From: Arcobacter sp. F2176
GTDB lineage: Bacteria > Campylobacterota > Campylobacteria > Campylobacterales > Arcobacteraceae
Reading direction: 5' to 3'
DNA: 43,904 nt
Assembly (NCBI RefSeq): GCF_004116465.1
Contig: NZ_PDJV01000022.1
Span: 1-43,904, forward strand
Part shown: positions 1-16,107 of the stretch, in pieces
Layout of the letters: each line of letters begins with the position of its first letter
How positions within the stretch are numbered: position 1 is the first letter of the stretch
Made by a program: the position numbers and the translations under genes
Notes under the pieces: generated by a model
The model's input: only the letters and a program-made list of their open reading frames with translations
The model's database searches: none
What the model was told of the DNA's origin: nothing

Positions 1-120
1 GATTTTACTAGCTGCTTCATATCCATCTGTACAGTTTTCTACAAAAAAACCTCTATTTTCTAGTGAGAGTTTTATGATTTTATTAAGTGAATAGTCATCT
101 TCTAGTAAAAATATTTTCAT
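1..120 (-). CDS. Response regulator, OmpR-type receiver (partial, N-terminus only)
   Basis: Reading the minus strand from the ATG at 120-118 gives MKIFLLEDDYSLNKIIKLSL followed by the rest of a receiver start; the gene runs off the left edge after about 40 residues. The E-D-D acidic cluster after the first beta strand and the L-N-K-I-I pattern are typical of OmpR/PhoB-class regulators of Campylobacterota. Its ATG lies one base past the stop of the upstream kinase (122-1165), so the two are co-transcribed and probably form one phosphorelay. The DNA-binding domain is outside the window, so the OmpR class is inferred from the receiver only. It is the best candidate to bind the 11-bp tandem repeats in front of urtA and ureD. 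Confidence 0.8.
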   Translation of the reverse strand, partial: MKIFLLEDDYSLNKIIKLSLENRGFFVENCTDGYEAASKI

Positions 121-121
121 T

Positions 122-1240: not shown

Positions 1241-3538
1241 TTGAATCTAAAAAAACTCTTTATGTTACTTTTTATATTAAATACTATTTCTTTTATTAGT
1301 GTTGCAGTTGTCATAAATAAATACCAAAACTCTACAGTAAAACTAGAAAATGCCTATCAACTACAATACAAATCACTTATCCTTGCCCATGAGCTAAGAC
1401 AAAGTAGTGATGACCTGACAAGGATGGCAAGAACTTATGTGATTACTGGAAATCCATTATTTGAAGAACAATATAAAACAGTATTGGATATAAGGAATGG
1501 GAAAAAGAATAGACCCAAAAGATATAATGGAATATTTTGGGATTTTTATACTTTAGATGGTACAAAGCCTATTTTAGATGGTGAAAAAGTTCCTTTAAGA
1601 GATCTTATGAAAAGGGCAAACTTCCCAGATGAAGAGTTAAATTTACTTTTTGCTTCACAAAATGAATCGGATGATTTAACAAACCTTGAACACAAAGCCA
1701 TGAATGCAGTTAAAGGAATCTTTGAAGATGAAAATGGAAATTTTACTATAAAAGGAAAACCTGATTTTAAACTAGCAAGGGAACTTATGCACTCAGATGA
1801 GTATCACAAAGCAAAAATAAGAATTATGCAACCTTTGGATAACTTCTATAAAGCCTTTGAAAAAAGAACCCAAGAAAGAGTAAATGATGAGAGAAAGACC
1901 GTAAAACAACAAGAGTTTTATGTAAATGTGATAGTTCTTTTTTCAGTTATTTTTTTCTTGATGTCATTTTTTATAATTTTATTTAGAATCATTTACCCAA
2001 TAGATTTATTAAGAGTTGCCATGTTAAAACTTTCATCAAATGATATGAGTGTGGAGTTGGATAAGAACAAGTATGATGATGAAGTGGGCGACATGATAGG
2101 TTCTGTTTCTATTTTCAAAGAAAATACTAAAAAACTAATAGAGAGTGAACACCAAATCAAACTTGCCATGGAAGAAGCAAAAAGTGCAAATAAAGCAAAA
2201 TCTATATTTCTAGCAAGAATGAGTCATGAACTTCGAACTCCCCTAAATGCTATACTTGGATTTTCAAATATTTTAAAAAAATCTATGAATGCTACACAAG
2301 AAGAAAAAAACAATTTAAATATAATCAAAAGAAGTGGAGAACATCTTTTAAATATCATAAATGAAATTTTAGAATTATCAAAAATCGAAGCTGGAAAAAT
2401 AGAAATTATTCCAAAAGTTTTTAATCTAAAAGAGTTAATAGAAGATATTAATTCAATTTTTGCCTTTAGATGTAAAGAAAAGGGCTTGGAGTTTAAAATT
2501 GTTTTAGATGATAATCTACCTGAAGTTGTAAAAATGGATGATTTAAGACTTCGGCAAATACTTATAAATCTCTTAAGTAATAGTTTGAAATTTACAAATG
2601 AAGGTGAAATATCACTATATTTATATGAAAAGAGCCAAAAACTATTTTTTGAAATAAAAGATAGTGGAATAGGTATTGATAATAAAGATTTAAAAAGAAT
2701 ATTTAAACCCTTTGAGCAAATTAAACATGAAGATTATAATAAAAATGGAACAGGATTGGGACTATCTATTACAAAAGAGTTAGTAACTTTAATGAATGGT
2801 TCTATTTATGCAAAAAGTAAAGTTAATCTTGGAACAGAGTTTTATTTTAGTGTTGATTATAAAAATGCAAATAGTAGTGATATTGATGCTCAGTTAAAAT
2901 TAAAAGATATTATAGGAATAGAAAAGAATAAAAATAAAAAAACTATTCTTGTAGTTGATGATATTGAAGTAAATAGAAATCTATTAACACAAATATTAAC
3001 TTCCCATGGCTTTGAAGTATTTCAAGCAAGTAGTGGATATGAGGCCATTGAACTTTTTGAAAAGCAAGAGTTTAATCTTATTTTTATGGATATAAAAATG
3101 AGTGGCTTAGATGGCTTAGAAACTATAAAGCTTATAAGAAAAGATGAAAAAGACAAAAATATACCAATAGTTGCAGTATCTGCAAATGTATTTAATGAAG
3201 ATAAAGAAATAGCAATACAAAGTGGAGCAGATGGATTTTTAGCAAAACCAGTTGATGAAAAAGAGTTATTAATTATTTTGGCAAAGTATTTTAATTTGAA
3301 ATTAAAATATTTAGAAAATAATGAAGAAAAAGCTGATATTTTTGAAAGAATATCAAAACTTGATAAAAAGTTTTTTATAAAACTAAATGAATTCGCTTTA
3401 TTAATGGACTCTTCTAGTATTGAGCAGTTTTTAGAAAATAGTGATATTGAAAATGATTTAAAACTATATTTAAAAGAACTTGTGGAAAACTTCAAATATA
3501 AAGAGATAAGTGAAATCTGTATAAAAAATATACAGTAA
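1241..3538 (+). CDS. Membrane-bound hybrid sensor histidine kinase, probable urea-system sensor
   Basis: A 765-residue sensor kinase. Transmembrane segment at about 7-26, a periplasmic domain at 27-225, a second membrane segment at 228-251, then a HAMP-like linker, HisKA with His329 (S-H-E-L-R-T-P-L-N), HATPase (N-L-L-S-N-S-L-K; G-T-G-L-G-L), a receiver with Asp617 (FMDIKMSGLDG) and Lys669, and a tail of about 80 residues without recognised motifs. The periplasmic part (L-A-H-E-L-R-Q-S-S-D-D-L-T-R-M-A-R-T-Y near residue 50, then D-L-M-K-R-A-N-F) resembles a sensor module I recall from other proteobacterial hybrid kinases; its ligand is unknown to me. The start is TTG at 1241, since the nearby ATG at 1228 is out of frame. 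It lies 93 bp before urtA and divergent from the other two-component genes, so sensing urea or a nitrogen cue is likely but inferred. Confidence 0.85.
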   Translation: MNLKKLFMLLFILNTISFISVAVVINKYQNSTVKLENAYQLQYKSLILAHELRQSSDDLTRMARTYVITGNPLFEEQYKTVLDIRNGKKNRPKRYNGIFWDFYTLDGTKPILDGEKVPLRDLMKRANFPDEELNLLFASQNESDDLTNLEHKAMNAVKGIFEDENGNFTIKGKPDFKLARELMHSDEYHKAKIRIMQPLDNFYKAFEKRTQERVNDERKTVKQQEFYVNVIVLFSVIFFLMSFFIILFRIIYPIDLLRVAMLKLSSNDMSVELDKNKYDDEVGDMIGSVSIFKENTKKLIESEHQIKLAMEEAKSANKAKSIFLARMSHELRTPLNAILGFSNILKKSMNATQEEKNNLNIIKRSGEHLLNIINEILELSKIEAGKIEIIPKVFNLKELIEDINSIFAFRCKEKGLEFKIVLDDNLPEVVKMDDLRLRQILINLLSNSLKFTNEGEISLYLYEKSQKLFFEIKDSGIGIDNKDLKRIFKPFEQIKHEDYNKNGTGLGLSITKELVTLMNGSIYAKSKVNLGTEFYFSVDYKNANSSDIDAQLKLKDIIGIEKNKNKKTILVVDDIEVNRNLLTQILTSHGFEVFQASSGYEAIELFEKQEFNLIFMDIKMSGLDGLETIKLIRKDEKDKNIPIVAVSANVFNEDKEIAIQSGADGFLAKPVDEKELLIILAKYFNLKLKYLENNEEKADIFERISKLDKKFFIKLNEFALLMDSSSIEQFLENSDIENDLKLYLKELVENFKYKEISEICIKNIQ

Positions 3539-3557: not shown

Positions 3558-3591
3558 AAACAACACTTAAACAACACTTCTATTTTATACT
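3558..3591 (+). promoter_or_regulatory. Tandem 11-bp operator and -10 box in front of urtA
   Basis: Two perfect, abutting copies of AAACAACACTT occupy 3558-3568 and 3569-3579. A -10 box TATACT follows at 3586-3591, six bases after the second copy. An 11-bp period and replacement of the -35 region are the layout of PhoB/OmpR-class activator sites. There is no good TTGACA at the usual distance. A near-identical pair lies before ureD at 11089-11110. Confidence 0.7.
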
Positions 3592-3631: not shown

Positions 3632-4909
3632 ATGAAAAGTAGATTCACAAAAGTTTTAGCTGCATCAGCAATTGTAACTATGAGTATGATGGCTCAAGCT
3701 GCTGATACAATCAAAGTTGGTGTTTTACACTCACTATCTGGAACAATGGCGATTTCAGAAACAACTTTAAAAGATACAGTTTTAATGCTTATTGATGAGC
3801 AAAATAAAAAAGGTGGTTTATTAGGTAAAAAAATAGAACCAGTTGTAGTTGACCCTGCATCAAACTGGCCACTGTTTGCTGAAAAGATGAGAGGACTTTT
3901 AACTAAAGATAAAGTTGATGTTACATTTGGTTGTTGGACATCAGTTTCTAGAAAATCAGTTCTTCCAGTTGTTGAAGAGTTAAATGGTTTACTTTTTTAT
4001 CCTGTTCAATATGAGGGTGAAGAGTCTAGCAAAAATGTATTTTATACAGGTGCTGCGCCTAACCAACAAGCAATTCCTGCAGTTGATTATCTTATGAACG
4101 ATATGGGTGTTAAAAGATGGGTTTTAGCTGGTACTGATTATGTATATCCAAGAACTACAAATAAAATCTTAGAAGCATACTTAAAATCAAAAGGTGTTAA
4201 ATCATCTGATATTATGATTAACTATACTCCATTTGGACACTCTGATTGGCAAAGTATTGTAAGTGAAATCAAAAAATTCGGAAGCGCTGGTAAAAAAACT
4301 GCTGTTGTATCTACAATCAATGGTGATGCAAATGTTCCTTTTTATAAAGAATTAGGTAACCAAGGTATTACATCTTCATCTATTCCAGTTATTGCATTCT
4401 CTGTTGGAGAAGAAGAGCTATCAGGACTTGATACTAAACCTTTAGTTGGTCATTTAGCTGCATGGAATTATTTTGAAAGTGTTTCTACTCCAGAAAATGA
4501 CAAATTTATTTCAACTTGGCATAAATATATTAAAGATGATAAAAGAGTTACAAATGACCCAATGGAAGCTACTTACATCGGATTTAATTTATGGGTAAAA
4601 GCTGTTGAAAAAGCTGGAACTACAAATGTTGATAAAGTAAGAGAGGCAATCGTTGGATTATCTGTTCCAAATCTTACTGGTGGAACTGCAACTATGCTTA
4701 AAAATCACCATATTACAAAACCTGTTTTAATCGGTGAGATTCAAGAAGATGGCCAATTTGAAACTGTATGGCAAACTGAAAAAGAAGTTCCAGGTGATGC
4801 TTGGTCAAACTACTTACCAGGAAGTAAAGACTTAATCTCAGATTGGACTAAACCAATCAATTGTGGAAACTATAACACTAAAACTAAAAAGTGTATGGGT
4901 GCTAACTAA
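3632..4909 (+). CDS. urtA: Urea ABC transporter, periplasmic urea-binding protein UrtA
   Basis: A 425-residue periplasmic solute-binding protein of the branched-chain amino acid/amide family that captures urea for the UrtBCDE permease. An N-terminal signal peptide (MKSRFTKV, hydrophobic stretch, cleavage near A-Q-A-A at 22-25) is followed by K-V-G-V-L-H-S-L-S-G-T-M-A. Stretches typical of UrtA are present: F-G-C-W-T-S-V-S-R-K-S-V-L-P, P-V-Q-Y-E-G-E-E-S-S, and the C-terminal A-W-S-N-Y-L-P-G. Length matches the family. The ATG follows AAGGAG at a good distance. It is the first gene of the transporter operon and is separated from urtB by a strong hairpin, which should make this protein more abundant than the membrane parts. 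The tandem operator just upstream is the likely control point. Confidence 0.95.
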   Translation: MKSRFTKVLAASAIVTMSMMAQAADTIKVGVLHSLSGTMAISETTLKDTVLMLIDEQNKKGGLLGKKIEPVVVDPASNWPLFAEKMRGLLTKDKVDVTFGCWTSVSRKSVLPVVEELNGLLFYPVQYEGEESSKNVFYTGAAPNQQAIPAVDYLMNDMGVKRWVLAGTDYVYPRTTNKILEAYLKSKGVKSSDIMINYTPFGHSDWQSIVSEIKKFGSAGKKTAVVSTINGDANVPFYKELGNQGITSSSIPVIAFSVGEEELSGLDTKPLVGHLAAWNYFESVSTPENDKFISTWHKYIKDDKRVTNDPMEATYIGFNLWVKAVEKAGTTNVDKVREAIVGLSVPNLTGGTATMLKNHHITKPVLIGEIQEDGQFETVWQTEKEVPGDAWSNYLPGSKDLISDWTKPINCGNYNTKTKKCMGAN

Positions 4910-4917
4910 CAAAATTA

Positions 4918-4944
4918 AAATATGAGAGTTCAACTCTCATATTT
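4918..4944 (+). terminator. Hairpin between urtA and urtB (partial terminator)
   Basis: Arms of 13 bases (AAATATGAGAGTT and its exact complement) meet at a single base, and TTTCTTTGCTCT follows. This is an intrinsic-terminator-like stem inside the operon. Such stems after a solute-binding gene usually lower expression of the downstream permease genes relative to the binding protein. Confidence 0.75.
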
Positions 4945-4975
4945 CTTTGCTCTACATAATAAATGAAAGGTAATC

Positions 4976-6571
4976 ATGAAAATCTTAAAAATAATATTGC
5001 TTAATTTATTAATTTTATCTTCACTAATTGCTTCAGATCTTCAAAGTGATTCACAAGAACTTTTGACAAATAGTTATTCTAAAAAAGAAATAGTTATATT
5101 AGATTTAACTAAAAAGTATAAAAGTGAAAAAAAGTTTGAGTACTTATTACAAAAACTTTTAGCAGGAGATTTATATTATACAAAAAGTGATAAACAAATT
5201 GTATTTTTAAAAGAGAAAAAAGAGAATAACTATCATACAGTTGATGTTTTTTCTGGCGAGAAGTTAAGTGAAGCTTCAAAATATGATTTTAAAAAAGTTA
5301 AAATCAATAATAAATTAAGAAATATTATAAAAGCATCTTTGGCAAAAATAAATCTTTTTTCTACTGATGAAGATAAAAGATTAAATTCTGCTAAAAATTT
5401 ATTAAAAAACCTAAAACTTGATGATAAGGAGATTATCATTGAGGCTTTACAAAGTGAAAAATCCTCAAATATTAGAGATATTTTAGATGAGGCAAATACT
5501 ATTTTAATTGCTCAATATGGAACTGCTGAAGAAAAATATAAAGCTGTAGATAAACTTGGAGGTTTTATTTCATCTAAAACTCTTGCAACACTAAAAGATG
5601 TACTTAATAATAGTGAAGATGAAAAACTAAAAACAATAGCTGAATCTTCACTTGATATAGTTGAGATAAAAAAGAGTATTTATTCATTTATCGAAACTGC
5701 ATTTTTTGGACTTAGTATGGGTTCTGTTTTACTTTTAGCAGCTATTGGCTTAGCAATTACCTTTGGTGTTATGAAAGTAATCAATATGGCGCATGGTGAA
5801 CTTATTATGATAGGTGCTTATACCACATATACGATTCAACAACTTTTCCCAAATCTCATTGAATACTCTGTGATTATCGCAATTCCTGCTGCTTTTATAG
5901 TAAGTGGAATTGTGGGAATCATAATAGAAAGATTGGTGATAAGACATCTTTATGGAAGACCTCTTGAAACACTACTTGCAACTTTTGGGGTAAGTTTGAT
6001 TTTACAACAGTTAGTGCGAACAATATATTCACCACTTAATCAAGAAGTAAAAACTCCTTCATGGATGAGTGGAGCTTGGGAAGTAAATAGTTCACTGTTT
6101 CTTACATACAATAGATTATATATCGTGATATTTTCTGTAATGGTATTTTTAGCGATTTTGTATGTTATGAAAAAGACTTCTTTAGGGTTAAAAGTAAGAG
6201 CTGTTTCACAAAATAGACCAATTGCAAGAGCTATGGGTATAAAATCAAGTTTTATAGATGCAGCTACTTTTGGAATAGGTTCAGGAATAGCAGGAGTTGC
6301 AGGGGTTGCCCTATCTCAACTTACAAATGTGGGACCAAATCTAGGACAAGCTTATATTGTGGATAGTTTTATGGTTGTTGTATTTGGTGGAGTTGGAAAT
6401 CTATGGGGAACTTTAATAGCAGCCCTTACTTTAGGTGAAATTAACAAGTTTATTGAGCCAATTTCAGGAGCAGTGTTAGCAAAAGTTATTATCTTAGTAT
6501 TTATTATTTTATTTATACAAAAAAGACCTAGAGGATTATTTCCTCAAAAAGGTCGAGATGCACAGGATTAA
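4976..6571 (+). CDS. urtB: Urea ABC transporter permease UrtB
   Basis: A 531-residue inner-membrane permease subunit of the LivH type. It has a signal-like N-terminus (residues 1-20), then a roughly 210-residue lysine- and glutamate-rich region predicted outside the membrane, then the permease part from about residue 235 (S-M-G-S-V-L-L-L-A-A-I-G-L-A-I-T-F-G, V-I-N-M-A-H-G-E-L-I-M-I-G-A-Y). The long extracytoplasmic extension in front of the permease is normal for UrtB and separates it from LivH. The ATG follows AAAGG. The stop overlaps the longest possible reading of urtC. Downstream of the urtA hairpin, it starts the urtBCD run. Confidence 0.94.
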   Translation: MKILKIILLNLLILSSLIASDLQSDSQELLTNSYSKKEIVILDLTKKYKSEKKFEYLLQKLLAGDLYYTKSDKQIVFLKEKKENNYHTVDVFSGEKLSEASKYDFKKVKINNKLRNIIKASLAKINLFSTDEDKRLNSAKNLLKNLKLDDKEIIIEALQSEKSSNIRDILDEANTILIAQYGTAEEKYKAVDKLGGFISSKTLATLKDVLNNSEDEKLKTIAESSLDIVEIKKSIYSFIETAFFGLSMGSVLLLAAIGLAITFGVMKVINMAHGELIMIGAYTTYTIQQLFPNLIEYSVIIAIPAAFIVSGIVGIIIERLVIRHLYGRPLETLLATFGVSLILQQLVRTIYSPLNQEVKTPSWMSGAWEVNSSLFLTYNRLYIVIFSVMVFLAILYVMKKTSLGLKVRAVSQNRPIARAMGIKSSFIDAATFGIGSGIAGVAGVALSQLTNVGPNLGQAYIVDSFMVVVFGGVGNLWGTLIAALTLGEINKFIEPISGAVLAKVIILVFIILFIQKRPRGLFPQKGRDAQD

Positions 6572-6581
6572 GGGGAAAATG

Positions 6582-7721
6582 ATGAAACAAAGTGAAATCC
6601 TGCTTGCAGGTAAAAATAAATCAATAATTTTTAAAATTTTGGAAAATGACAAAGGTGGGAAGATAGTTTTATCAACTCTTGCAGTTGTAGTATTTGTAGT
6701 ATCATTTTGTAATTTATTTGTACCAAGTAGTTCAGCATTTTATATCTCAACTTTTACAGTTACGATTTTAGGTAAATATTTAGCATTTGCTCTTTTAGCA
6801 CTTGCATTAGATTTAGTGTGGGGATATTTAGGGGTTTTAAGCCTTGGTCATGGAGCATTTTTTGCCCTTGGTGGATATGGGTTTGCTATGTATCTTATGC
6901 GTCAAATAGGTGATAGAGGAGTTTATGGGAATCCTGATTTACCAGATTTTATGGTATTTATGAACTTAAAAGAGTTACCATGGTTTTGGTATGGATTTGA
7001 TAATCCTTTGTTTACTTTTATAATGATTATGCTCGTACCTGCAATCTTAGCTTTTGTTTTTGGCTGGTTTGCTTTTAAATCAAGAGTTACAGGAGTTTAT
7101 CTTTCAATCATAACTCAAGCAATGACTTATGCACTTATGTTAGCATTTTTTAGAAATGATATGGGCTTTGGTGGAAATAATGGGTTGACAGATTTTAAAG
7201 ATATTTTAGGATTTGATTTACAAGCGGATACGACAAGAGTAGGACTTCTTATAATTACTTTTTTAGCTTTGACTTTGGGATATTTGATTTGTAGATTTAT
7301 TATCAACTCAAGATTAGGTCGTGTAATTATATCTATTAGAGATGAAGAGAGTAGGGTGAGATTTATTGGATATAAAGTTGAACAATACAAAGTATTTATA
7401 TTTGTAGTTTCAGCAATACTTGCAGGAATAGCAGGAGCACTTTATGTTCCACAAGTGGGCATCATAAATCCAGGAGTTTTCTCACCACTATTTTCTATTG
7501 AACTTGTTATTTGGGTAGCAATAGGTGGAAGAGGAACTTTATATGGTGCAATCATTGGAGCAATTATTGTAAATTTTGCAAGTACATATTTTACCTCTGC
7601 ACTTCCAGAAGTTTGGTTATATGCTTTAGGTGGATTGTTTGTGCTTGTAACTTTATATCTTCCACAAGGTGTAGTTGGACTTATAAGTAAAATCAATGGA
7701 AAACTTGGAAAGGCTAAATAA
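6582..7721 (+). CDS. urtC: Urea ABC transporter permease UrtC
   Basis: The second membrane subunit, LivM type, 379 residues from the chosen start. Several membrane segments are visible. Family motifs include D-L-V-W-G-Y-L-G-V-L-S-L-G-H-G-A-F-F-A-L-G-G-Y and, near the C-terminus, I-W-V-A-I-G-G-R-G-T-L-Y-G-A. An in-frame ATG at 6558 would overlap urtB, but the AGGGG at 6571-6575 sits 6 bases before the ATG at 6582 (3 before the one at 6579), so 6582 is preferred. The last base of its stop codon is the first base of urtD's ATG, indicating translational coupling. Confidence 0.94.
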   Translation: MKQSEILLAGKNKSIIFKILENDKGGKIVLSTLAVVVFVVSFCNLFVPSSSAFYISTFTVTILGKYLAFALLALALDLVWGYLGVLSLGHGAFFALGGYGFAMYLMRQIGDRGVYGNPDLPDFMVFMNLKELPWFWYGFDNPLFTFIMIMLVPAILAFVFGWFAFKSRVTGVYLSIITQAMTYALMLAFFRNDMGFGGNNGLTDFKDILGFDLQADTTRVGLLIITFLALTLGYLICRFIINSRLGRVIISIRDEESRVRFIGYKVEQYKVFIFVVSAILAGIAGALYVPQVGIINPGVFSPLFSIELVIWVAIGGRGTLYGAIIGAIIVNFASTYFTSALPEVWLYALGGLFVLVTLYLPQGVVGLISKINGKLGKAK

Positions 7722-8509
7722 TGAATCTATTAAGACATGAAAATGAACAAAATATTGGTAATCTTAAAATTGGAGATAGAATATTATTAGTTGATGGCGT
7801 TAGTGTTAGTTTTGATGGATTTAAAGCCTTAAATAACTTAAGTTTTTCCATAAACTATGGGGAACTTAGATGTATCATTGGAGCCAATGGTGCAGGAAAA
7901 TCTACTATGATGGATGTGGTTACAGGAAAAACTAGACCTGATGAGGGAGAAGTTGTATTTGGTAATGCCGTAAATTTATTAGAACTAGATGAACCAACAA
8001 TTTCTGAAATAGGTATTGGGAGAAAATTCCAAAAACCAACAGTATTTCAAAATCATTCAGTTTTCGAAAATTTAGAGTTAGCAATGAAAGATGATAAAAG
8101 ATTTTTTAAAACACTTTTTTCGAAACTAGGAAGTGAGCAAAAAGACAAAATAGAAGAGACTATGAAATTAATTGGTCTAAAAGAGCTTTACAATATGGAT
8201 GCTGGTATTTTATCTCACGGTCAAAAACAGTGGCTTGAAATAGGTATGCTTATCATGCAAGAGCCAAAGTTACTTCTAGTAGATGAACCCGTTGCAGGAA
8301 TGACACCACAAGAGGTGGACAAAACAGCAGAGATTTTGACAAGTTTATCAAAAGAAAATGCTGTAGTTGTGGTTGAACATGATATGGAGTTTATACGAAG
8401 TATCGCTTCAAAAGTAACTGTGCTACATGAGGGTTCTGTTTTGGCAGAAGGTAATATGGATGCGATACAGAACAATGAAAAAGTGCGAAAAGTATATTTA
8501 GGAGAATAA
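7721..8509 (+). CDS. urtD: Urea ABC transporter ATP-binding protein UrtD
   Basis: A 262-residue ATPase of the LivG type. Walker A is G-A-N-G-A-G-K-S-T near residue 56, the signature L-S-H-G-Q-K-Q-W-L-E is near 167, and Walker B is L-L-L-V-D-E-P-V-A-G near 185, followed by the switch His in V-V-V-E-H-D-M-E-F. L-S-H-G-Q in place of L-S-G-G-Q is usual in UrtD. The ATG overlaps the urtC stop by one base. A long hairpin element follows immediately after its stop. Confidence 0.94.
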   Translation: MNLLRHENEQNIGNLKIGDRILLVDGVSVSFDGFKALNNLSFSINYGELRCIIGANGAGKSTMMDVVTGKTRPDEGEVVFGNAVNLLELDEPTISEIGIGRKFQKPTVFQNHSVFENLELAMKDDKRFFKTLFSKLGSEQKDKIEETMKLIGLKELYNMDAGILSHGQKQWLEIGMLIMQEPKLLLVDEPVAGMTPQEVDKTAEILTSLSKENAVVVVEHDMEFIRSIASKVTVLHEGSVLAEGNMDAIQNNEKVRKVYLGE

Positions 8510-8612
8510 AAATTCAAATTATGCCACTATTACGGCGTTGAAAACTTTTGATTTACTTATAGTAAACCTTCAAGTTTCCGCCTTGTACTAGCAACATACT
8601 TTGAATTTTTTT
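8508..8612. repeat. Long imperfect palindromic element between urtD and urtE
   Basis: Almost the whole 120-bp gap between urtD and urtE folds on itself. The outer arms AAAAATTCAAA (8508-8518) and TTTGAATTTTT (8600-8610) are complementary. Inner complementary blocks TATG/CATA, CTA/TAG, GGCG/CGCC and ACTT/AAGT continue the stem to an apical TTTACTTATAGTAAA. Total length is about 100 bases. The shape suggests a small non-autonomous palindromic repeat (MITE/REP-like) or a structured mRNA segment rather than a simple terminator. A genome search was not possible here. Confidence 0.7.
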
Positions 8613-8629
8613 TAATTGAAGGGAAACAG

Positions 8630-9325
8630 ATGTTAAAAATAGAAAATATAAATCAATTTTATGGTCAAAGTCATACCCTTTGGGATTTGAATTTAGAGAT
8701 TAAAAAGGGTCGTTGTACTTGTCTTATGGGAAGAAATGGAGTTGGTAAAACAACACTTAGTAAAGTTATTATGGGTTTACTTCCTATTCGTGATGGGCAA
8801 ATCATTTATGATGGACAAGATATTTCAAAACTACCAGATCACAAACGGGCAAGTATTGCAATAGGTTATGTTCCTCAAGGAAGAGAGATATTTTCACAAC
8901 TAAGTGTCCTAGAAAACTTGCAAATTGGAGTTTTGGCAAATAGAAATAAAATCTTAAAAGTTCCAGAAAAGATATATGAACTTTTCCCAGTACTTAAAGA
9001 TATGCAAAAAAGAAAAGGTGGGGATTTATCAGGAGGTCAACAACAACAACTTGCAATCGCCCGAGCACTTTGTATTGATCCAAAGTTTTTAATTCTTGAT
9101 GAGCCAAGTGAAGGGATACAACCAAATATTGTAGCTCAAATTGGGGAAGTAATTGATTATCTTACAAAAGAAGAAGATATGACAGTTTTACTTGTGGAAC
9201 AAAAGCTTCCATTTGCCAGACGACATGGTGATGATTTTTATGTAGTAGATAGGGGAAGTGTAGTTGCACAAGGAGAGATTGGGCAACTTAGTGATGAGAT
9301 TATTCGGAAGTATATGTCGGTTTAG
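8630..9325 (+). CDS. urtE: Urea ABC transporter ATP-binding protein UrtE
   Basis: A 231-residue ATPase of the LivF type. Walker A is G-R-N-G-V-G-K-T-T near residue 34, Q-loop region Y-V-P-Q-G-R-E-I-F near 85, signature L-S-G-G-Q-Q-Q-Q near 134, and Walker B F-L-I-L-D-E-P-S-E-G-I-Q-P near 155. G-R-E-I-F and E-G-I-Q-P are characteristic of UrtE. The ATG follows GAAGGG. It closes the urt operon; expression may be set apart from urtD by the palindromic element in front of it. Confidence 0.94.
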   Translation: MLKIENINQFYGQSHTLWDLNLEIKKGRCTCLMGRNGVGKTTLSKVIMGLLPIRDGQIIYDGQDISKLPDHKRASIAIGYVPQGREIFSQLSVLENLQIGVLANRNKILKVPEKIYELFPVLKDMQKRKGGDLSGGQQQQLAIARALCIDPKFLILDEPSEGIQPNIVAQIGEVIDYLTKEEDMTVLLVEQKLPFARRHGDDFYVVDRGSVVAQGEIGQLSDEIIRKYMSV

Positions 9326-9341
9326 ATTTTTTCTTTTTTTT

Positions 9342-9359
9342 CCCAACTTTTTAGTTGGG
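9342..9359 (+). terminator. Hairpin after urtE
   Basis: CCCAACT (9342-9348), TTTT loop, AGTTGGG (9353-9359), 16 bases after the urtE stop. A T-rich run precedes rather than follows the stem, so termination strength is uncertain, but the position suits the end of the urt operon. Confidence 0.5.
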
Positions 9360-9433
9360 AGTATTCTTATATAATAAACATTAATTTTATTAAATTTATT
9401 GTACCATCAATGAAAATTAATTTGGAATAAAAT

Positions 9434-9529
9434 ATGAAAGATTTTTTTGGAACAAAGTTTCTTAATATTGCAGGAACATTTTTCCTTCCACTTGGTGCAA
9501 TACTTGGGATTATACATTTCTTTGGATGA
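9434..9529 (+). CDS. Small hydrophobic protein, 31 residues
   Basis: A short open frame, ATG at 9434 to TGA at 9527-9529, encoding M-K-D-F-F-G-T-K-F-L-N-I-A-G and then a hydrophobic run rich in F, L, I and G that ends H-F-F-G. It could be a single-pass membrane miniprotein. A TATAAT box is at 9370-9375. The Shine-Dalgarno is weak: only GGAATAA lies upstream (9424-9430). I do not recognise the family. It could be real or chance; conservation in relatives would decide. Confidence 0.35.
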   Translation: MKDFFGTKFLNIAGTFFLPLGAILGIIHFFG

Positions 9530-9537
9530 ATTAAATA

Positions 9538-9702
9538 GTGAAAAATCTTATTATTTTATTATTAGTACTTATTTTCTTTAATGGCTGTGAGAATAAAGAA
9601 AAGAAAAATGAAAAAACTATCGGAAAGCCTCCATTTATTATAAAATCTGAAAATAAAATAAAAGGGGACAAATACCATTTTTTAAATATCTTTTACAGAT
9701 AA
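9538..9702 (+). CDS. Small putative lipoprotein, 54 residues, possibly with an altered C-terminus
   Basis: A GTG-started frame nine bases after the previous small ORF. It encodes a lysine, a hydrophobic stretch (N-L-I-I-L-L-L-V-L-I-F-F) and N-G-C, a plausible lipobox with Cys17, then a charged tail (E-N-K-E-K-K-N-E-K). The last dozen codons lie in a sequence that looks like the edge of the neighbouring ATPase segment (AAAAGGGGACAAATACC, 9660-9676) and overlap the 3' end of the antisense ATPase by 21 bp. The original C-terminus may have been replaced. Function unknown. Confidence 0.4.
   Translation: MKNLIILLLVLIFFNGCENKEKKNEKTIGKPPFIIKSENKIKGDKYHFLNIFYR
9660..9676 (+). repeat. Boundary-like motif at the 3' side of the ATPase
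   Basis: AAAAGGGGACAAATACC. A related sequence in the same orientation (AAAAAGGGACAGTCGCCACC) lies at 11051-11070 on the other side of the ATPase. The two may mark the ends of an inserted segment. Confidence 0.4.
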
Positions 9703-10988
9703 AAGCCTATATTCAATCTCATAACCTTTATATTCTTGTACTAATTTTTGAGATTTTAAAACTAAATCATTATAACTTAGTCGTTTTTCATTTAGTTTTA
9801 CTTCACAAATAAGAAGTTTTTTATCTATATCATCAATAGCGACTATATCTATTTCATTTTGATTATTTCGTTCCCAATATGAACCAATAGTTGTAAAAGT
9901 TTGTTTCTCTTTTAATAGTTCAACAAAAAGCTTTTCAAGGAATTTTCCTTTAAAAGTTGAAATATCTCTATAAATAATCTTTTTTAATCTATCAAAATTT
10001 TCAGCTTCGATAAGTGATTGGTATTTAAAAATAAATCTAAACCAAAAAGCTAAAAAGTTATCTACTATTTCATATTTTTGAATTTTTGAGTTTGGTTTTG
10101 CATTTATTGGTTTGATTGATTTTATGATGTTATAGTCCTTTTCAAGTCGTGATAAATGTCCTGAAATGTTTTTCTCTAAGATAGATTCTATTTCACTTCT
10201 TGAAGTTTTTGAATCAGAGATAAGTGCAAGAATTGAAAAATATGTTCCTATTCTTTTCCAAACTCTTCTATAAGTCTATTTTTACCCTCTTCTAAAAACA
10301 TTGAGTTTGGGTCAATTATTGTATCTATCATTGATTTTAAATCAAAACTACTATTTAAAATAAATAGTTCAATATATTTTGCAACTCCACCTGTTAAAAG
10401 GAAAAAATCTAGTAAGTTTTCATTTGAATATGAGTTGTAGTCTTTTAAAATCTCTTTTAATACACTAACTTTCAAAGGTTTTAAATCTACTTTAAAATCA
10501 CATCTTCCAAAAAGTGGCTCTTTATTATCTTCATAGATTTTTTTCATTAGTGAATAAACAGAACCACAAGTTATAAGATGAATATTTGTTTTATCTTTAT
10601 TTAAATCCCAAAGTTTTTGCATAGATGAATAAATTGATTCATTTATTCTAAAAAACTCTTGAAATTCATCAATTATAAGTGTAAATGATTTTGTTTTTCC
10701 AAGCTCTAAAATATATTCAAAAAGTTCTTCAAATTTTGTAACTTTTCCAAAAATCTTAACTTCTAACTTATCAACTATTTCGTTACAGAACTCTTCACAA
10801 AGCAGTTGTTCATTTTTTTTAGAAACAAAAAAATATAAAACCTTTTCATTTGAATAATTTTGTAAAACAAGAGTTGTTTTTCCAACTCTTCTTCTACCTA
10901 TTAACATTGTCATTATTGATTTTTGAGATTTTAATATATCTGCTTTTTTTAGAACTTCAAGCTCTTTTTCTCTATTGTAAAATTTCAT
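9682..10988 (-). pseudogene. AAA ATPase with C-terminal DUF234-like nuclease-type domain, frameshifted
   Basis: The first part (10988 to 10248, 246 codons) is an ATPase of the archaeal-type/DUF234 group: Walker A G-R-R-R-V-G-K-T-T at residues 31-39, Walker B L-I-I-D-E-F-Q-E-F near 120. It ends ...L-I-E-E-F-G-K-E-stop. The adjoining frame continues at once with G-T-Y-F-S-I-L-A-L-I-S and runs to a stop at 9682-9684. It includes N-E-I-D-I-V-A-I and C-E-V-K-L-N, the pattern of a PD-(D/E)XK-like fold. Restoring one base (TA to TAT after GAA, near 10248-10251) joins both halves as F-G-K-E-Y-G-T-Y-F-S. So this is a one-base deletion in a gene that would encode about 435 residues, or a sequencing error. 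A palindromic operator precedes it. Confidence 0.8.
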
Positions 10989-10998
10989 TATAAAAACC

Positions 10999-11030
10999 TT
11001 TGTTATGATAACCTGTGTTATTATAACAAA
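10999..11030. promoter_or_regulatory. Palindromic operator upstream of the ATPase
   Basis: TTTGTTATGATAAC (10999-11012) and GTTATTATAACAAA (11017-11030) are inverted repeats with one mismatch and a 4-base spacer. It lies 10 bases before the ATPase start on the minus strand, and a TATAAT-like box is embedded in one arm. It looks like a repressor or autoregulatory site. Confidence 0.6.
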
Positions 11031-11050
11031 ATTATTCTAATTTTTGAAGA

Positions 11051-11070
11051 AAAAAGGGACAGTCGCCACC
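11051..11070 (+). repeat. Boundary-like motif at the 5' side of the ATPase
   Basis: AAAAAGGGACAGTCGCCACC, partner of the motif at 9660-9676. It is unusually GC-rich for the surroundings. Confidence 0.4.
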
Positions 11071-11088
11071 TTTAAATTCATATTTAAG

Positions 11089-11110
11089 AAGTGTTGCTTT
11101 AGTGTTGTTT
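11089..11110 (-). promoter_or_regulatory. Second copy of the tandem 11-bp operator, upstream of ureD
   Basis: On the minus strand this reads AAACAACACTA then AAGCAACACTT, a 20/22 match to the perfect tandem repeat before urtA, and the neighbouring bases also agree. Relative to ureD the repeats point away from the gene. They lie 28 bases before a TATAAT box at 11139-11144, that is, in an upstream-activator position. Shared control of urease and urea uptake is inferred. Confidence 0.6.
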
Positions 11111-11138
11111 TTTCAAAAGTCAAGAGCCTAAATCTATA

Positions 11139-11144
11139 TATAAT
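11139..11144 (+). promoter_or_regulatory. -10 box of the urease operon
   Basis: TATAAT, about 77 bases before the ureD ATG, with no clear TTGACA at 17 bases, consistent with activator-dependent transcription. It is preceded by AGTCAAGAGCCTAAATCTA (11118-11136), a sequence also found, with one gap and one change, in the urtA leader (3601-3620). Confidence 0.45.
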
Positions 11145-11220
11145 TTATACAGCTAAAGAAAAAGTAATCTCTATTTTTGTGATAAAATATTATGAATTAA
11201 AGCACAATTTTAGGAAAAAA

Positions 11221-11973
11221 ATGAATATAAAATTTAAGTTTGAAAATAATAAGTTTTCTTTAGATAAATTAGAACTTCCCTCAAGATACTACTATTTTCA
11301 AAATGAAGAGAATTATATAAAGCTCTTAAATATTGGAGAGGGAATATTTCCCAAAGATAAAATAAGAACATCATTTAAACTTGATAACTCAAACCTAATT
11401 CTAACAACTGAATCAGCTACAAAAATCTATCCATCTAAAAAAGAGTATGGAATAAACAAAATAGATATAAGATTAGAAAATAGTTCAAACCTAGAGTTTC
11501 TAAATGATGAACTTATTTTATACAAAGACTCAAAATATATTCAGTTTTTTAATTTAAAGTGTGATGATAGTTCAACATTTTTTTATTCAGATATATTAAG
11601 TCGTGGAAGAAGTTTCGAGGACTTTGTTTTCTCAAAGATGTTAATAAAAAACAGTTTTTCATGTGAGAGTAAACTTGAATACATAGAAAAGTTTGATGTG
11701 TGTGGTGATGAGCTTAAAGATTATATTTATAGAAAAAGCAGTGATAATTTTATTTTTGCAAAAATATATATTAAAATAAAAGAAAATGACAATCTAATAA
11801 AAAATATACAGCAAAATGGCTTTGAATCTTTTTCTTTTAGTCATAATAAAAGAATTATTATTGGAGTAATTAGTTCAAACAGTATGTCAGAGCTTAAATC
11901 AAAAGTTATGTATATCTGGGAACTTTATAGAAATGATTTAAATAAAAAGAAATTTAGTCTAGGAAAACAATAA
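11221..11973 (+). CDS. ureD: Urease accessory protein UreD (UreH)
   Basis: A 250-residue urease accessory protein that binds apo-urease and recruits UreF and UreG for nickel insertion. The sequence is divergent, but T-T-E-S-A-T-K-I-Y-P-S near 70, the I-L-S-R-G-R-S-F-E-D-F segment near 125, and its place in front of ureA identify it. The frame is open further upstream to 11044, but that stretch runs through the operator and promoter; the ATG at 11221 with AGGAAAAAA before it is the credible start. First gene of ureD-ureAB-ureC-ureE-ureF-ureG, as in Arcobacter. Confidence 0.85.
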   Translation: MNIKFKFENNKFSLDKLELPSRYYYFQNEENYIKLLNIGEGIFPKDKIRTSFKLDNSNLILTTESATKIYPSKKEYGINKIDIRLENSSNLEFLNDELILYKDSKYIQFFNLKCDDSSTFFYSDILSRGRSFEDFVFSKMLIKNSFSCESKLEYIEKFDVCGDELKDYIYRKSSDNFIFAKIYIKIKENDNLIKNIQQNGFESFSFSHNKRIIIGVISSNSMSELKSKVMYIWELYRNDLNKKKFSLGKQ

Positions 11974-11991: not shown

Positions 11992-12672
11992 ATGTTTCTA
12001 ACAAATCGTGAACAAGAAAGATTGATGATTTATACAGCTTCAAAATTGGCACTTGAGCGAAAAGAAAAAGGTTTAAAGCTAAACTATCCAGAAGCTGTTG
12101 CAATTTTGAGTTCATATATTCTTGAAGGTGCAAGGGAAGGTAAAACTGTAGCACAACTTATGGTTGATGCTACAAAGGTTTTAGGTGAAGATGATGTTAT
12201 GGATGGAATTGCCTCTATGATGCATATGGTTCAAATAGAAGCTACCTTTGATGATGGTACAAAACTCGTTACAGTTCACAATCCTATTACTACAAGTAAA
12301 AAAGCAAAAATAGAACCGGGTGAATATTTTGTAAGTGAAGGTGAAATAGCTCTAAATGAAAATAAAAAAATTGCCACAATACAAGTAGAAAACAAGGGCG
12401 ATAGACCAGTGCAAATTGGATCACACTATCACTTTTTTGAAGTTAATAAGGAACTTGCCTTTGATAGAGTAAAAGCTTATGGAAAAAGACTTGATGTTCC
12501 AGCAGGAACTTCAGTACGATTTGAGCCAGGTTCAATAAAAGAGATAAATCTAATAGATTTTAGTGGAAAAAGATATATGAGTGGATTTAATGGTTTGGTT
12601 GAGGGATTTTTAGATGATGTTCCAACAAAAGAAAATGCCATGAAAAATTTAGAAAAGTTCCTAGGAGTATAA
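11992..12672 (+). CDS. ureA: Urease gamma-beta fusion subunit (UreA+UreB)
   Basis: A 226-residue structural subunit in which the gamma chain (about 1-100: [23 protein letters not shown]) is fused to the beta chain (about 106-226: [22 protein letters not shown]). This fusion is the arrangement of Helicobacter (named UreA there) and Arcobacter; most bacteria keep the two apart. The ATG follows GGAGG. The stop lies one base before the ureC start. Confidence 0.96.
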
Positions 12673-12673
12673 G

Positions 12674-14377
12674 ATGAAAATATCAAAAGAAAAATATGCT
12701 TCAATGTATGGACCAACGACTGGTGATAGATTTAGACTCGCTGATACATCTTTAATAGCTAAGATAGAAAAAGATTATACAACTTATGGAGAAGAGAGTA
12801 AGTTTGGTGGTGGTAAAACAGTAAGAGATGGTATGGCACAAAGTCCAACTGCTGTAGATGTTGCTGATTTGATTATTACAAATGCTGTTATTATTGATTA
12901 TACAGGTATTTACAAAGCTGATATAGGTATCAAAGATGGAATAATATCGGCTATTGGAAAATCTGGAAATCCAAACCTTTGTGATGGTATTACAGAAGGT
13001 TTAGAAATAGGTGCAAATACAGAAATATTGTCTGCTGAGGGTAAAATCATAACTGCTGGTGGTATAGATTCTCATATTCATTTTATAAGCCCTGGTCAAA
13101 TTGATGTTGCACTAGCTAGTGGAGTTACTACTATGGTAGGTGGGGGAACTGGCCCAAATACAGGAACAAATGCCACAACTTGTACTCCAGGGGAGTGGAA
13201 TATAGGTAAGATGATACAAAGTGTTGATAACTTACCACTTAACTTTGGTTTTATGGGAAAAGGAAATAGTTCTTGTAAAGAGGCTTTAGAGGTTCAAATA
13301 AAAGCTGGAGCTATGGGACTAAAACTGCATGAGGATTGGGGAAGTACTCCAAAGGCTATTGATACTTGTTTAAGTGTTGCAGATGAGTATGATGTGCAAG
13401 TTGCTATTCATACAGATACATTAAATGAATCAGGATTTGTAGATAATACTGTTGATTCTTTTAAAGATAGAACAATACATACCTTTCATAGTGAAGGAGC
13501 AGGTGGGGGACATGCCCCTGATATTATGAAAGTGGCTGGTTTAGCAAATGTCTTACCATCAAGTACTAATCCAACTCTACCATATACAAAAAATACAATA
13601 GAAGAACATCTTGATATGCTTATGGTTTGTCACCATTTAAGTCCAAAGATTCCAGAAGATGTAAGTTTTGCAGAGAGTCGTATTAGAGGCAAGACAATTG
13701 CAGCTGAAGATGTGTTACATGACTTGGGAGCTATTAGTATCACAAGTAGCGATTCACAAGCTATGGGAAGAGTAGGGGAAGTACTTACAAGAACTTGGCA
13801 AGTGGCTGATTCTATGAAAAAACAAAGAGGTGCTTTACTTGGAGATGATGAGTTAAGTGATAATAATAGAATTAAAAGATACATCGCAAAATATACAATA
13901 AATCCAGCAATTGCTTGTGGAATAGATGAGTATGTGGGAAGTATTGAAGTTGGTAAAATGGCTGACTTAGTTTTATGGAATAGAGCATTTTTTGGAGTGA
14001 AACCTGAAATTATCATCAAAGGTGGATTTATAGCACTTAGTATGATGGGTGATTCAAATGCTTCAATTCCAACACCAGAACCAAATATGTATAGACCTAT
14101 GTTTGGAAGTTTGGGAAAAGCAACTGCAAAAACAAGTGTTATTTTTACTTCTAAAGTAGCTTTAGATAGTGGCATTAGAGAAAAGTTAGAAATTGACAAA
14201 TCTATGTTAGCAGTGAAAAATACAAGAAATATTGGTAAAAAAGATATGAAATTAAATGATTTTATTGGAGATATTGAAGTTAATCCAGAAACTTATGATG
14301 TAACAGTAAATGGAGAGTTAATAGAATCAAACTATGTTTCAGTAGTACCAATGGCAAAAAAATATTTTATGTTCTAG
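12674..14377 (+). CDS. ureC: Urease alpha subunit, catalytic
   Basis: The 567-residue catalytic subunit, hydrolysing urea to ammonia and carbamate. All active-site residues are present at canonical positions: His134 and His136 (S-H-I-H-F), the carbamylated Lys217 and His219 (G-L-K-L-H-E-D-W-G), His246, His272, the flap Cys319-His320 (M-V-C-H-H-L) and Asp360 (T-S-S-D-S-Q-A-M-G). The enzyme should therefore bind two nickel ions. Start ATG with AGGAG just upstream inside the end of ureA. It is called ureB in Helicobacter nomenclature. Confidence 0.98.
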
Positions 14378-14386
14378 GAGGAAAGT

Positions 14387-14833
14387 TTGGAAAATTGCAT
14401 GATAAAAAAAGTTGCAAAGATAAGTAAGGATATTGATGCAACTGATGAGGTTGAGCTATCTTGGTTTGATATGCAAAAACCAAATTTAACAGGGGTTAGT
14501 AAAAGTGGTATAAATTTTGTAGTAAAAGTAAAGTTTACTCATTTACATGAAAATGATATTTTAATATGTGAAGATGGTTATGCTATCAAAGTAAAACGAA
14601 GTGTTGATGAGGTTTTTGTTTTAGAGTTCTCAGATGCTTTAGTTTTTGCAAAAACAGCATATGAAATAGGAAACAGACATCAACCCATAATGATAGAAGA
14701 TTATAAAATTACACTCTTAGATGATATTTCTATAGGTGATATTATAAAAGATTGTTATACAAATGAGAATATTAATGTAGAAAAAACAAAAGGGTACTTT
14801 AAACCAAATGGTAAAGCACATCACTCGCACTAA
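14387..14833 (+). CDS. ureE: Urease accessory protein UreE
   Basis: A 148-residue nickel metallochaperone. Two beta-rich domains are followed by the typical C-terminal end with only a short histidine tail (A-H-H-S-H), so its nickel-storage capacity is small compared with His-rich UreE proteins. The start is TTG at 14387, five bases after a perfect AGGAGG; the in-frame ATG at 14399 would be 17 bases away. The 3' end overlaps the ureF start by 26 bases. Confidence 0.88.
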   Translation: MENCMIKKVAKISKDIDATDEVELSWFDMQKPNLTGVSKSGINFVVKVKFTHLHENDILICEDGYAIKVKRSVDEVFVLEFSDALVFAKTAYEIGNRHQPIMIEDYKITLLDDISIGDIIKDCYTNENINVEKTKGYFKPNGKAHHSH

Positions 14834-15506
14834 TCTTAAATCTTTAAGTAGATTTTTGCAAATACTTGATGGAACTTTTCCCTCTGGTATGTTTGTGCAC
14901 TCTTTTGGTTTAGAGCCTCATATTGTAAAAGAAGTGGTTTATGATGAAAAGAGTTTGAAAATTTATTTAAAAAACTTAATCATAGATCAATATTCAAAGA
15001 TGGAGTTTGTTTATATCAAAAAAGTCTATAAAGCTTTAGAAAATGATAAATTAAATCTAATAAAAAAACTTGATAATGAGTATGGTTCATATTTGACTTA
15101 TGAATATGCAAAAGCTTCAAAAGATATTGGTGAAAACTATTTTGCCCAAATTAAAAGTTTGCCCACAAAAGATATAGTAAAAAACTATTTTTTAAATATA
15201 GATAATAAAACTTGTGAAGCAAATGAAATCATAGTTTTAAGTGCTCTATCTTTTGACTTGGATATTTGTATGGAAGATTTTATTGTAATGTGGACTAAAA
15301 AAAATCTTATAAATATAGCAGCAACGACACTTAAAATATCCAGAATAAAACCCTCTCAAATACAAAAAATGCTTTTTGAATTTGATGAAATATTAGAGAA
15401 TATTCTTTTTGAAGATATTGATAAAAAGATTACAAACTTTAATCCTCTTTTTGAAGAAGTCATTTTTTCTCACAAGAATTTAGAACCAAAGATGTTTATA
15501 ACGTAA
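14808..15506 (+). CDS. ureF: Urease accessory protein UreF
   Basis: A 232-residue helical accessory protein that works with UreD and UreG to load nickel. The family segment L-Q-I-L-D-G-T-F-P-S-G-M-F-V-H-S-F-G-L-E is at 17-36, and Y-E-Y-A-K-A-S-K-D-I-G near 100 is also typical. The start overlaps ureE, implying translational coupling. Confidence 0.92.
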   Translation: MVKHITRTNLKSLSRFLQILDGTFPSGMFVHSFGLEPHIVKEVVYDEKSLKIYLKNLIIDQYSKMEFVYIKKVYKALENDKLNLIKKLDNEYGSYLTYEYAKASKDIGENYFAQIKSLPTKDIVKNYFLNIDNKTCEANEIIVLSALSFDLDICMEDFIVMWTKKNLINIAATTLKISRIKPSQIQKMLFEFDEILENILFEDIDKKITNFNPLFEEVIFSHKNLEPKMFIT

Positions 15507-15519
15507 AGGAAAATAAGAA

Positions 15520-16107
15520 ATGAGTTTAAAAATAGGAATAGCAGGACCAGTAGGAAGTGGGAAGACTTCACTAATAGAAAGTCTTACAAACATACTAAAA
15601 GATAAATATTCACTAGCAATCGTGACAAATGATATATATACAACAGAAGATGCAAACTATTTAAAAAGAACACTTGATTTAGATGAGAATAGAATCACAG
15701 GTGTTGAAACAGGTGGTTGTCCTCATACTGCCATTCGTGATGATATTTCTATGAATCAAAAAGCTGTACGAGAACTTGAAAAAAAGTTTAATCCAGATAT
15801 AACATTTGTGGAAAGTGGAGGAGATAATTTAAGTGCAACTTTTTCTTATGAGTTGATTGATTATTATATGTATGTAATAGATGTGGCACAAGGGGCTGAT
15901 ATTCCTCGTAAAAAAGGTGCAGGATTACTTTTTTCTGATTTACTTGTAGTAAATAAAACTGACTTAGCTGTTTATGTTGGAGTTGATTTAGTATCTATGA
16001 AAAGTGATGTGGAAAATAATAGAAAAAATAAACCCTCAGTTTTTATTTCAAATAAAGATGAAAAAAGTTTAGTTCAAGTTATTTCTTGGATAGAGGCTTT
16101 ATTATAA
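15520..16107 (+). CDS. ureG: Urease accessory GTPase UreG
   Basis: A 195-residue SIMIBI-class GTPase that powers nickel delivery. P-loop G-P-V-G-S-G-K-T at 9-16, metal-binding C-P-H at 67-69 within E-T-G-G-C-P-H-T-A-I-R-D-D, and guanine-specificity N-K-T-D near 150. There is no His-rich N-terminal extension. Last gene of the urease operon, followed directly by a strong two-way terminator. No ureI or nickel transporter gene is adjacent. Confidence 0.96.
   Translation: MSLKIGIAGPVGSGKTSLIESLTNILKDKYSLAIVTNDIYTTEDANYLKRTLDLDENRITGVETGGCPHTAIRDDISMNQKAVRELEKKFNPDITFVESGGDNLSATFSYELIDYYMYVIDVAQGADIPRKKGAGLLFSDLLVVNKTDLAVYVGVDLVSMKSDVENNRKNKPSVFISNKDEKSLVQVISWIEALL

Follow-up and report, generated by a model that had tools for sequence, protein, structure and literature searches.

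The Pho box, bound by PhoB, and the operators of the OmpR family are built of head-to-tail direct repeats of 11 bp, and class II activators of the OmpR/PhoB type act from operators that overlap the -35 region. Urease of Helicobacter is subject to control by NikR. Published reports place Helicobacter urease under the response regulators HP1021, CrdRS and ArsRS (PMC9010608, PMC9927306, PMC2736386), and the Yersinia urease operon under OmpR, a global regulator (PMC7156557). The genome paper on A. butzleri remarked that NtrB/NtrC and RpoN are absent from that species (PMC2147049). In open-licence literature, represented chiefly by titles and abstract openings, no urea-responsive system of the kind considered here was found described for Arcobacteraceae.

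We analysed a 43,904-nucleotide stretch of the Arcobacter sp. F2176 genome (hereafter the window, meaning the whole stretch), in which a urea transporter operon is followed by a urease operon with the gene order ureD(AB)CEFG, an order reported previously (PMC2147049). We consider it quite probable that urtA, and ureD where it stands apart from the urt genes, are governed by the same pair of control sites, which would be read by a urea two-component regulator and a nitrogen-shortage regulator cooperating in helical phase. The elements themselves, their conservation, spacing and genomic distribution, and their co-occurrence with regulator genes are direct observations. The genes concerned are as follows.

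3632..9325, plus strand: urtABCDE, the urea ABC transporter operon
9340..9361, plus strand: terminator-like hairpin past urtE
10248..10988, minus strand: AAA ATPase ORF between urtE and ureD, unconserved at this place and not considered a target of the operator described below
11221..11973, plus strand: ureD, urease accessory gene (Pfam UreD)
11992-12672, plus strand: ureAB fusion
12674-14377, plus strand: ureC
14387-14833, plus strand: ORF in the ureE position, assigned by gene order alone
14808-15506, plus strand: ORF in the ureF position, likewise assigned by gene order alone
15520-16107, plus strand: ureG

The terminator-like hairpin after urtE suggests that ureD is a separate transcription unit. 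For ureD itself, a start at ATG 11221 is likelier than one at TTG 11044. The AAA ATPase gene, taken over 9650-10988, looks frameshifted near 10250, with its C-terminal half in another frame, pointing to either a pseudogene or a sequencing error. Opposite the start of ureC (12822-13103, minus strand) lies a match above the gathering score to Rfam RF02514 (5' ureB small RNA), which conserved coding sequence could equally explain.

Each of the two operons is preceded by a tandem operator, which we call the T box.

11089..11110, minus strand: T box at ureD, a tandem 11-bp direct repeat, AAACAACACTA AAGCAACACTT, kept in 10 genomes of the family
3559..3579, plus strand: T box at urtA, AACAACACTTAAACAACACTT, which overlaps the -35 region

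An earlier note on this DNA had reported, ahead of ureD and on the opposite strand, a 20/22 match to the tandem repeat of urtA, and the match is indeed present at 11089-11110, which agrees with 3558-3579 at 20 of 22 bases. The repeat reads RCAACACTNAA, with a period of 11 bp, about one helical turn, as in direct repeats of the OmpR/PhoB type. When the whole window was searched for two AACAAC units with 0-1 mismatch, only the T boxes of urtA and ureD were returned. On a matrix derived from 38 urtA sites, the ureD box scores 33.6 bits, compared with 27.5-36.2 bits for the urtA sites, and 20 Mb of simulated sequence of the window's composition yielded zero matches of at least 25 bits to this matrix, so that two such sites before two urea operons are, as the note had argued, hard to explain by chance. 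The genome-wide scan that the note proposed also supports a urea regulon: in the 3.27-Mb genome, a fuller T pattern has two perfect matches, at urtA and ureD only, and the other four matches carry three mismatches each, which is background, the backwards control giving 11 matches (whole-genome scans were pattern searches with backwards controls).

A second box, overlooked in the first reading, lies beside each T box. We call it P; its consensus is TGTATA-N5-TATACA.

11134..11152, no strand: P box at ureD, palindrome CTATATATAATTTATACAG, including TATAAT at 11139-11144
3517..3535, no strand: P box at urtA, CTGTATAAAAAATATACAG, with perfect palindromic arms
11183..11188, plus strand: likely -10 element of ureD, TAAAAT inside TGATAAAAT (11180-11188), conserved across ureD upstream regions
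3586..3591, plus strand: likely -10 element of urtA, TATACT, beginning 7 bp past the end of T, a spacing conserved in the family

Recognition of P changes the reading of the ureD promoter. The TATAAT 28 bases past the repeat, to which the earlier note had drawn attention as a box, is present at 11139-11144 but is unlikely to be the -10 element, because it lies within the conserved palindrome and is not itself conserved as a hexamer. The -10 element of ureD is likely the TAAAAT at 11183-11188, a position inferred from its conservation. At urtA, the fixed spacing between T and TATACT implies that T overlaps the -35 region. Both -10 elements resemble sigma-70 sites; a promoter scan of positions 9200-11300 was uninformative, sigma-70-like sites being no commoner there than in shuffled sequence. 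At ureD, P lies 64-74 bp ahead of the start codon with T behind it, so that the complete P-T unit faces the other way from that at urtA, where P is upstream of T. Across ureD upstream regions, T and P show pairwise identities of 86% and 84%, respectively, compared with 46% between the boxes and 44% just upstream.

The distance between the boxes is constrained as well. It is 24-26 bp at the 38 urtA promoters and 25, 35, 45 or 46 bp at ureD, that is, whole helical turns, and random spacing would be equally phased with a probability of about 1e-4 (six lineage values). Such whole-turn separation suggests that two regulators work together on the same promoters, and the spacings amount to a natural mutagenesis series for their cooperation.

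We compared 104 Arcobacteraceae genomes, 39 of which encode UrtA. T precedes urtA in all 38 for which upstream sequence exists, and ureD has an inverted T ahead of it in 10 genomes from four genera. The presence of this second T follows the distance between urtE and ureD. All nine ureD-T genomes of known gap have one of 760-2351 bp (the tenth gap is unknown); T is present at ureD in 9 of the 11 genomes within that range, F2176 among them, and in 0 of 20 with a gap of at most 139 bp. Over all gaps the association gives a Fisher p of 4e-4, uncorrected for kinship, and the genome counts are not independent because several T carriers are close relatives. Among close relatives, the state of T nevertheless tracks the gap (G000 versus G001 and G002, G008 versus G013, G032 versus G028). 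The two exceptions, both with a gap of about 1 kb, are G012, which has no ureD T, and G003, in which it has decayed; where the gap is 3-9 kb, ureD is without T. In G012, a gene for a GntR-type-looking regulator (L243:6200-6886) lies directly before ureD, at the place where other genomes have T. Nearly all T matches in the family are at urtA or ureD, with one clear exception before a urea/guanidine carboxylase gene, a distribution in line with the note's idea of one operator serving two urea operons as a small urea regulon. Outside the family, nine urtA upstream regions from other families, inspected by eye, showed no T, and three genomes of another family carry both the response regulator discussed below and T at urtA, two of them with only a weak P.

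These patterns bear on how an inverted T might act at ureD. It could be bound and yet repress or insulate, for example by limiting ureD, and its distance (about -95) and inversion do set it apart from the class II position at urtA. We regard this as unlikely: T is found when ureD is cut off from urt, which fits restored co-expression better, and it is phased with the P box adjoining the ureD promoter. For the inverted orientation the earlier note had offered two explanations, upstream activation of ureD or a former divergent target since replaced by the ATPase; the first is favoured here and the second finds no support. That T is the relic of a leftward divergent promoter appears very unlikely, even though the minus-strand order P - 25 bp - T is that of urtA and a weak TATGAA stands at the urtA -10 spacing in F2176. 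The ATPase is not conserved at this place and looks frameshifted, the genes upstream vary, and T follows the end of a plus-strand gene by 0-40 bp in G032, G083 and G005, all of which argues against a divergent target. Moreover, the minus-strand -10 is unconserved although T is conserved, and T stays in phase with P beside ureD.

With upstream activation of ureD as the preferred reading, we next consider which proteins might read the two boxes. At the left edge of the window, next to urtA, lie the genes of a signalling system.

1..121, minus strand: 5' part of the gene for an OmpR/PhoB-type response regulator, the remainder being on contig C41:3-515
122..1168, minus strand: receiver-histidine kinase of the same system
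1241..3538, plus strand: hybrid histidine kinase, whose gene immediately precedes urtA

The response regulator has Response_reg and Trans_reg_C domains (Pfam, 93.1 and 47.6 bits), and its gene is near urtA in most urea-locus genomes. Orthologs, defined by an identity of 59% or more, are found in 39 of 40 urea-locus genomes and in 0 of the 64 others; in the sole urea-locus genome without one (G042), the contig ends just upstream of urtA. Linkage alone is insufficient to account for this co-occurrence, because in G008 the regulator gene is unlinked, about 1 Mb from urtA. The OmpR/PhoB-type response regulator is thus the likely reader of T, with the qualification that the co-occurrence fits equally the two kinases travelling with it.

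P reaches beyond the urea genes. Good P sites in F2176 precede amt-glnK, another amt, an amt-GGDEF gene and a NifA-type gene, as well as eutB, an amino-acid ABC transporter gene (both named from their sequence) and a gene for an NtrC-like protein; P is also found ahead of genes with no clear nitrogen role. The amt-GGDEF gene (L283:2579-4396) encodes an ammonium-transporter-like protein with an apparent C-terminal GGDEF domain. The NtrC-like protein is our best candidate for the reader of P.

L279:1570-2319, minus strand: degenerate NtrC-like protein of 249 aa, encoded with glnD and adjoining amt-glnK

It is present in 81 of the 104 genomes. Its Sigma54_activat matches are partial, in an AAA region; a search for a receiver domain gave no Response_reg match, no GAFTGA is visible in its sequence, and the Fis-type helix-turn-helix is faint (HTH_50 below the cut-off, Fis matches weak). 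Of the 81 genomes with the protein, 53 have perfect P palindromes, versus 1 of the 23 without it. Co-occurrence and gene position therefore make it the best candidate for binding P, and a candidate for a general nitrogen regulator. That a single protein reads both P and T, P not being a general nitrogen box, would agree with the constant company of the two boxes at urtA in the family; we judge it highly improbable, since P stands before amt, glnK and the NtrC-like gene in genomes that have no urtA, T or response regulator, and since the two relatives from another family have regulator and T with only a weak P. Finally, we give almost no credence to the idea that the ureD match arose by chance or persists neutrally from a common ancestor: although several carriers are close relatives within one genus, the simulated sequence gave nothing comparable, the flanks have diverged far more than T, and the element recurs in four genera at whole-turn spacing.

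The favoured reading has two proteins acting on two boxes. In the mechanism that we propose, T would be the operator of the urea-linked two-component system, whose response regulator would bind the 11-bp direct repeat head-to-tail, while P would be bound by the regulator responsible for general nitrogen control in the family, which is probably the NtrC-like protein of 249 aa. The boxes would form a composite element in helical phase, so that both proteins would sit on one face of the DNA, where they would cooperate. At urtA, the location of T on the -35 region would place the response regulator for direct contact with RNA polymerase, while at ureD, P, centred near -52 relative to the inferred start, would adjoin the promoter, and T at about -95 would serve as an upstream activation site. 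Where ureD is cut off from urt read-through, urease and urea uptake would stay subject to one urea-plus-nitrogen-shortage control through the P-T unit. What we infer from sequence comparison is the pairing of proteins with boxes, that the effect is activation and not repression, and the nature of the signals.

A third target is suggested by genome G057, in which an additional P-T pair, with a spacing of 24 bp and followed by TATACT, lies ahead of a full-length urea carboxylase gene at a locus that also holds allophanate hydrolase, UAAP1 and UAAP2. This promoter (L364:3956-4017) sits between UAAP2 and the carboxylase gene, at the place of a guanidine-II-like riboswitch in relatives (compare L365 and L370). 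Scans of the carboxylase loci of ten other family genomes returned no T. At the Rfam gathering score no riboswitch was found in four tested carboxylase loci; below it, two of the four have guanidine-II-like matches, and visual inspection shows comparable sequence in others. A guanidine-I riboswitch stays before an ABC transporter gene (L376:4824-4920). Judged by sequence, the substrate of the carboxylase may be either urea or guanidine. Tentatively, and as a slightly less than even prospect, P-T may be a portable element, usable in either orientation with sigma-70-type promoters and requiring helical phase between the urea two-component regulator and a nitrogen regulator derived from NtrC but devoid of a receiver, that is kept or installed at stand-alone urea-degrading operons, including this carboxylase.

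Nitrogen control is little described in Arcobacteraceae, and the elements identified here outline a urea regulon specific enough to be tested, for which a candidate regulator can be named. The reach of the candidate nitrogen regulator and of P includes ammonium transport and a NifA-type gene. Compared with known systems, the T box resembles PhoB and OmpR operators in its 11-bp head-to-tail repeats on the -35 region of urtA and in the Response_reg and Trans_reg_C regulator encoded nearby; it differs in its sequence, in the urea gene set that it precedes, and in its ureD copy, which stands inverted at a distance upstream of the promoter, in phase with the box of a second regulator. P is comparable to NtrC-type palindromes in its 5-bp centre and in standing ahead of ammonium-transport, NifA-type and urea genes, and the predicted reader of P, encoded with glnD, has a sigma-54-activator-like AAA fragment and may have a Fis-type helix-turn-helix; unlike NtrC, it lacks a receiver domain and a visible GAFTGA, and the -10 elements at urtA and ureD are sigma-70-like. 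Helicobacter offers a parallel from a related group in which urease is under response regulators, but the signals described there are AI-2, nitric oxide, acid or nickel, whereas in the present case the link is with urea transport and a nitrogen box. In Yersinia, an OmpR-family regulator is likewise reported to act on the urease operon; we know of no urea-transporter linkage or T/P unit there. The regulator families involved are ordinary, but the proposed two-regulator element is phased and can seemingly be inverted and reused.
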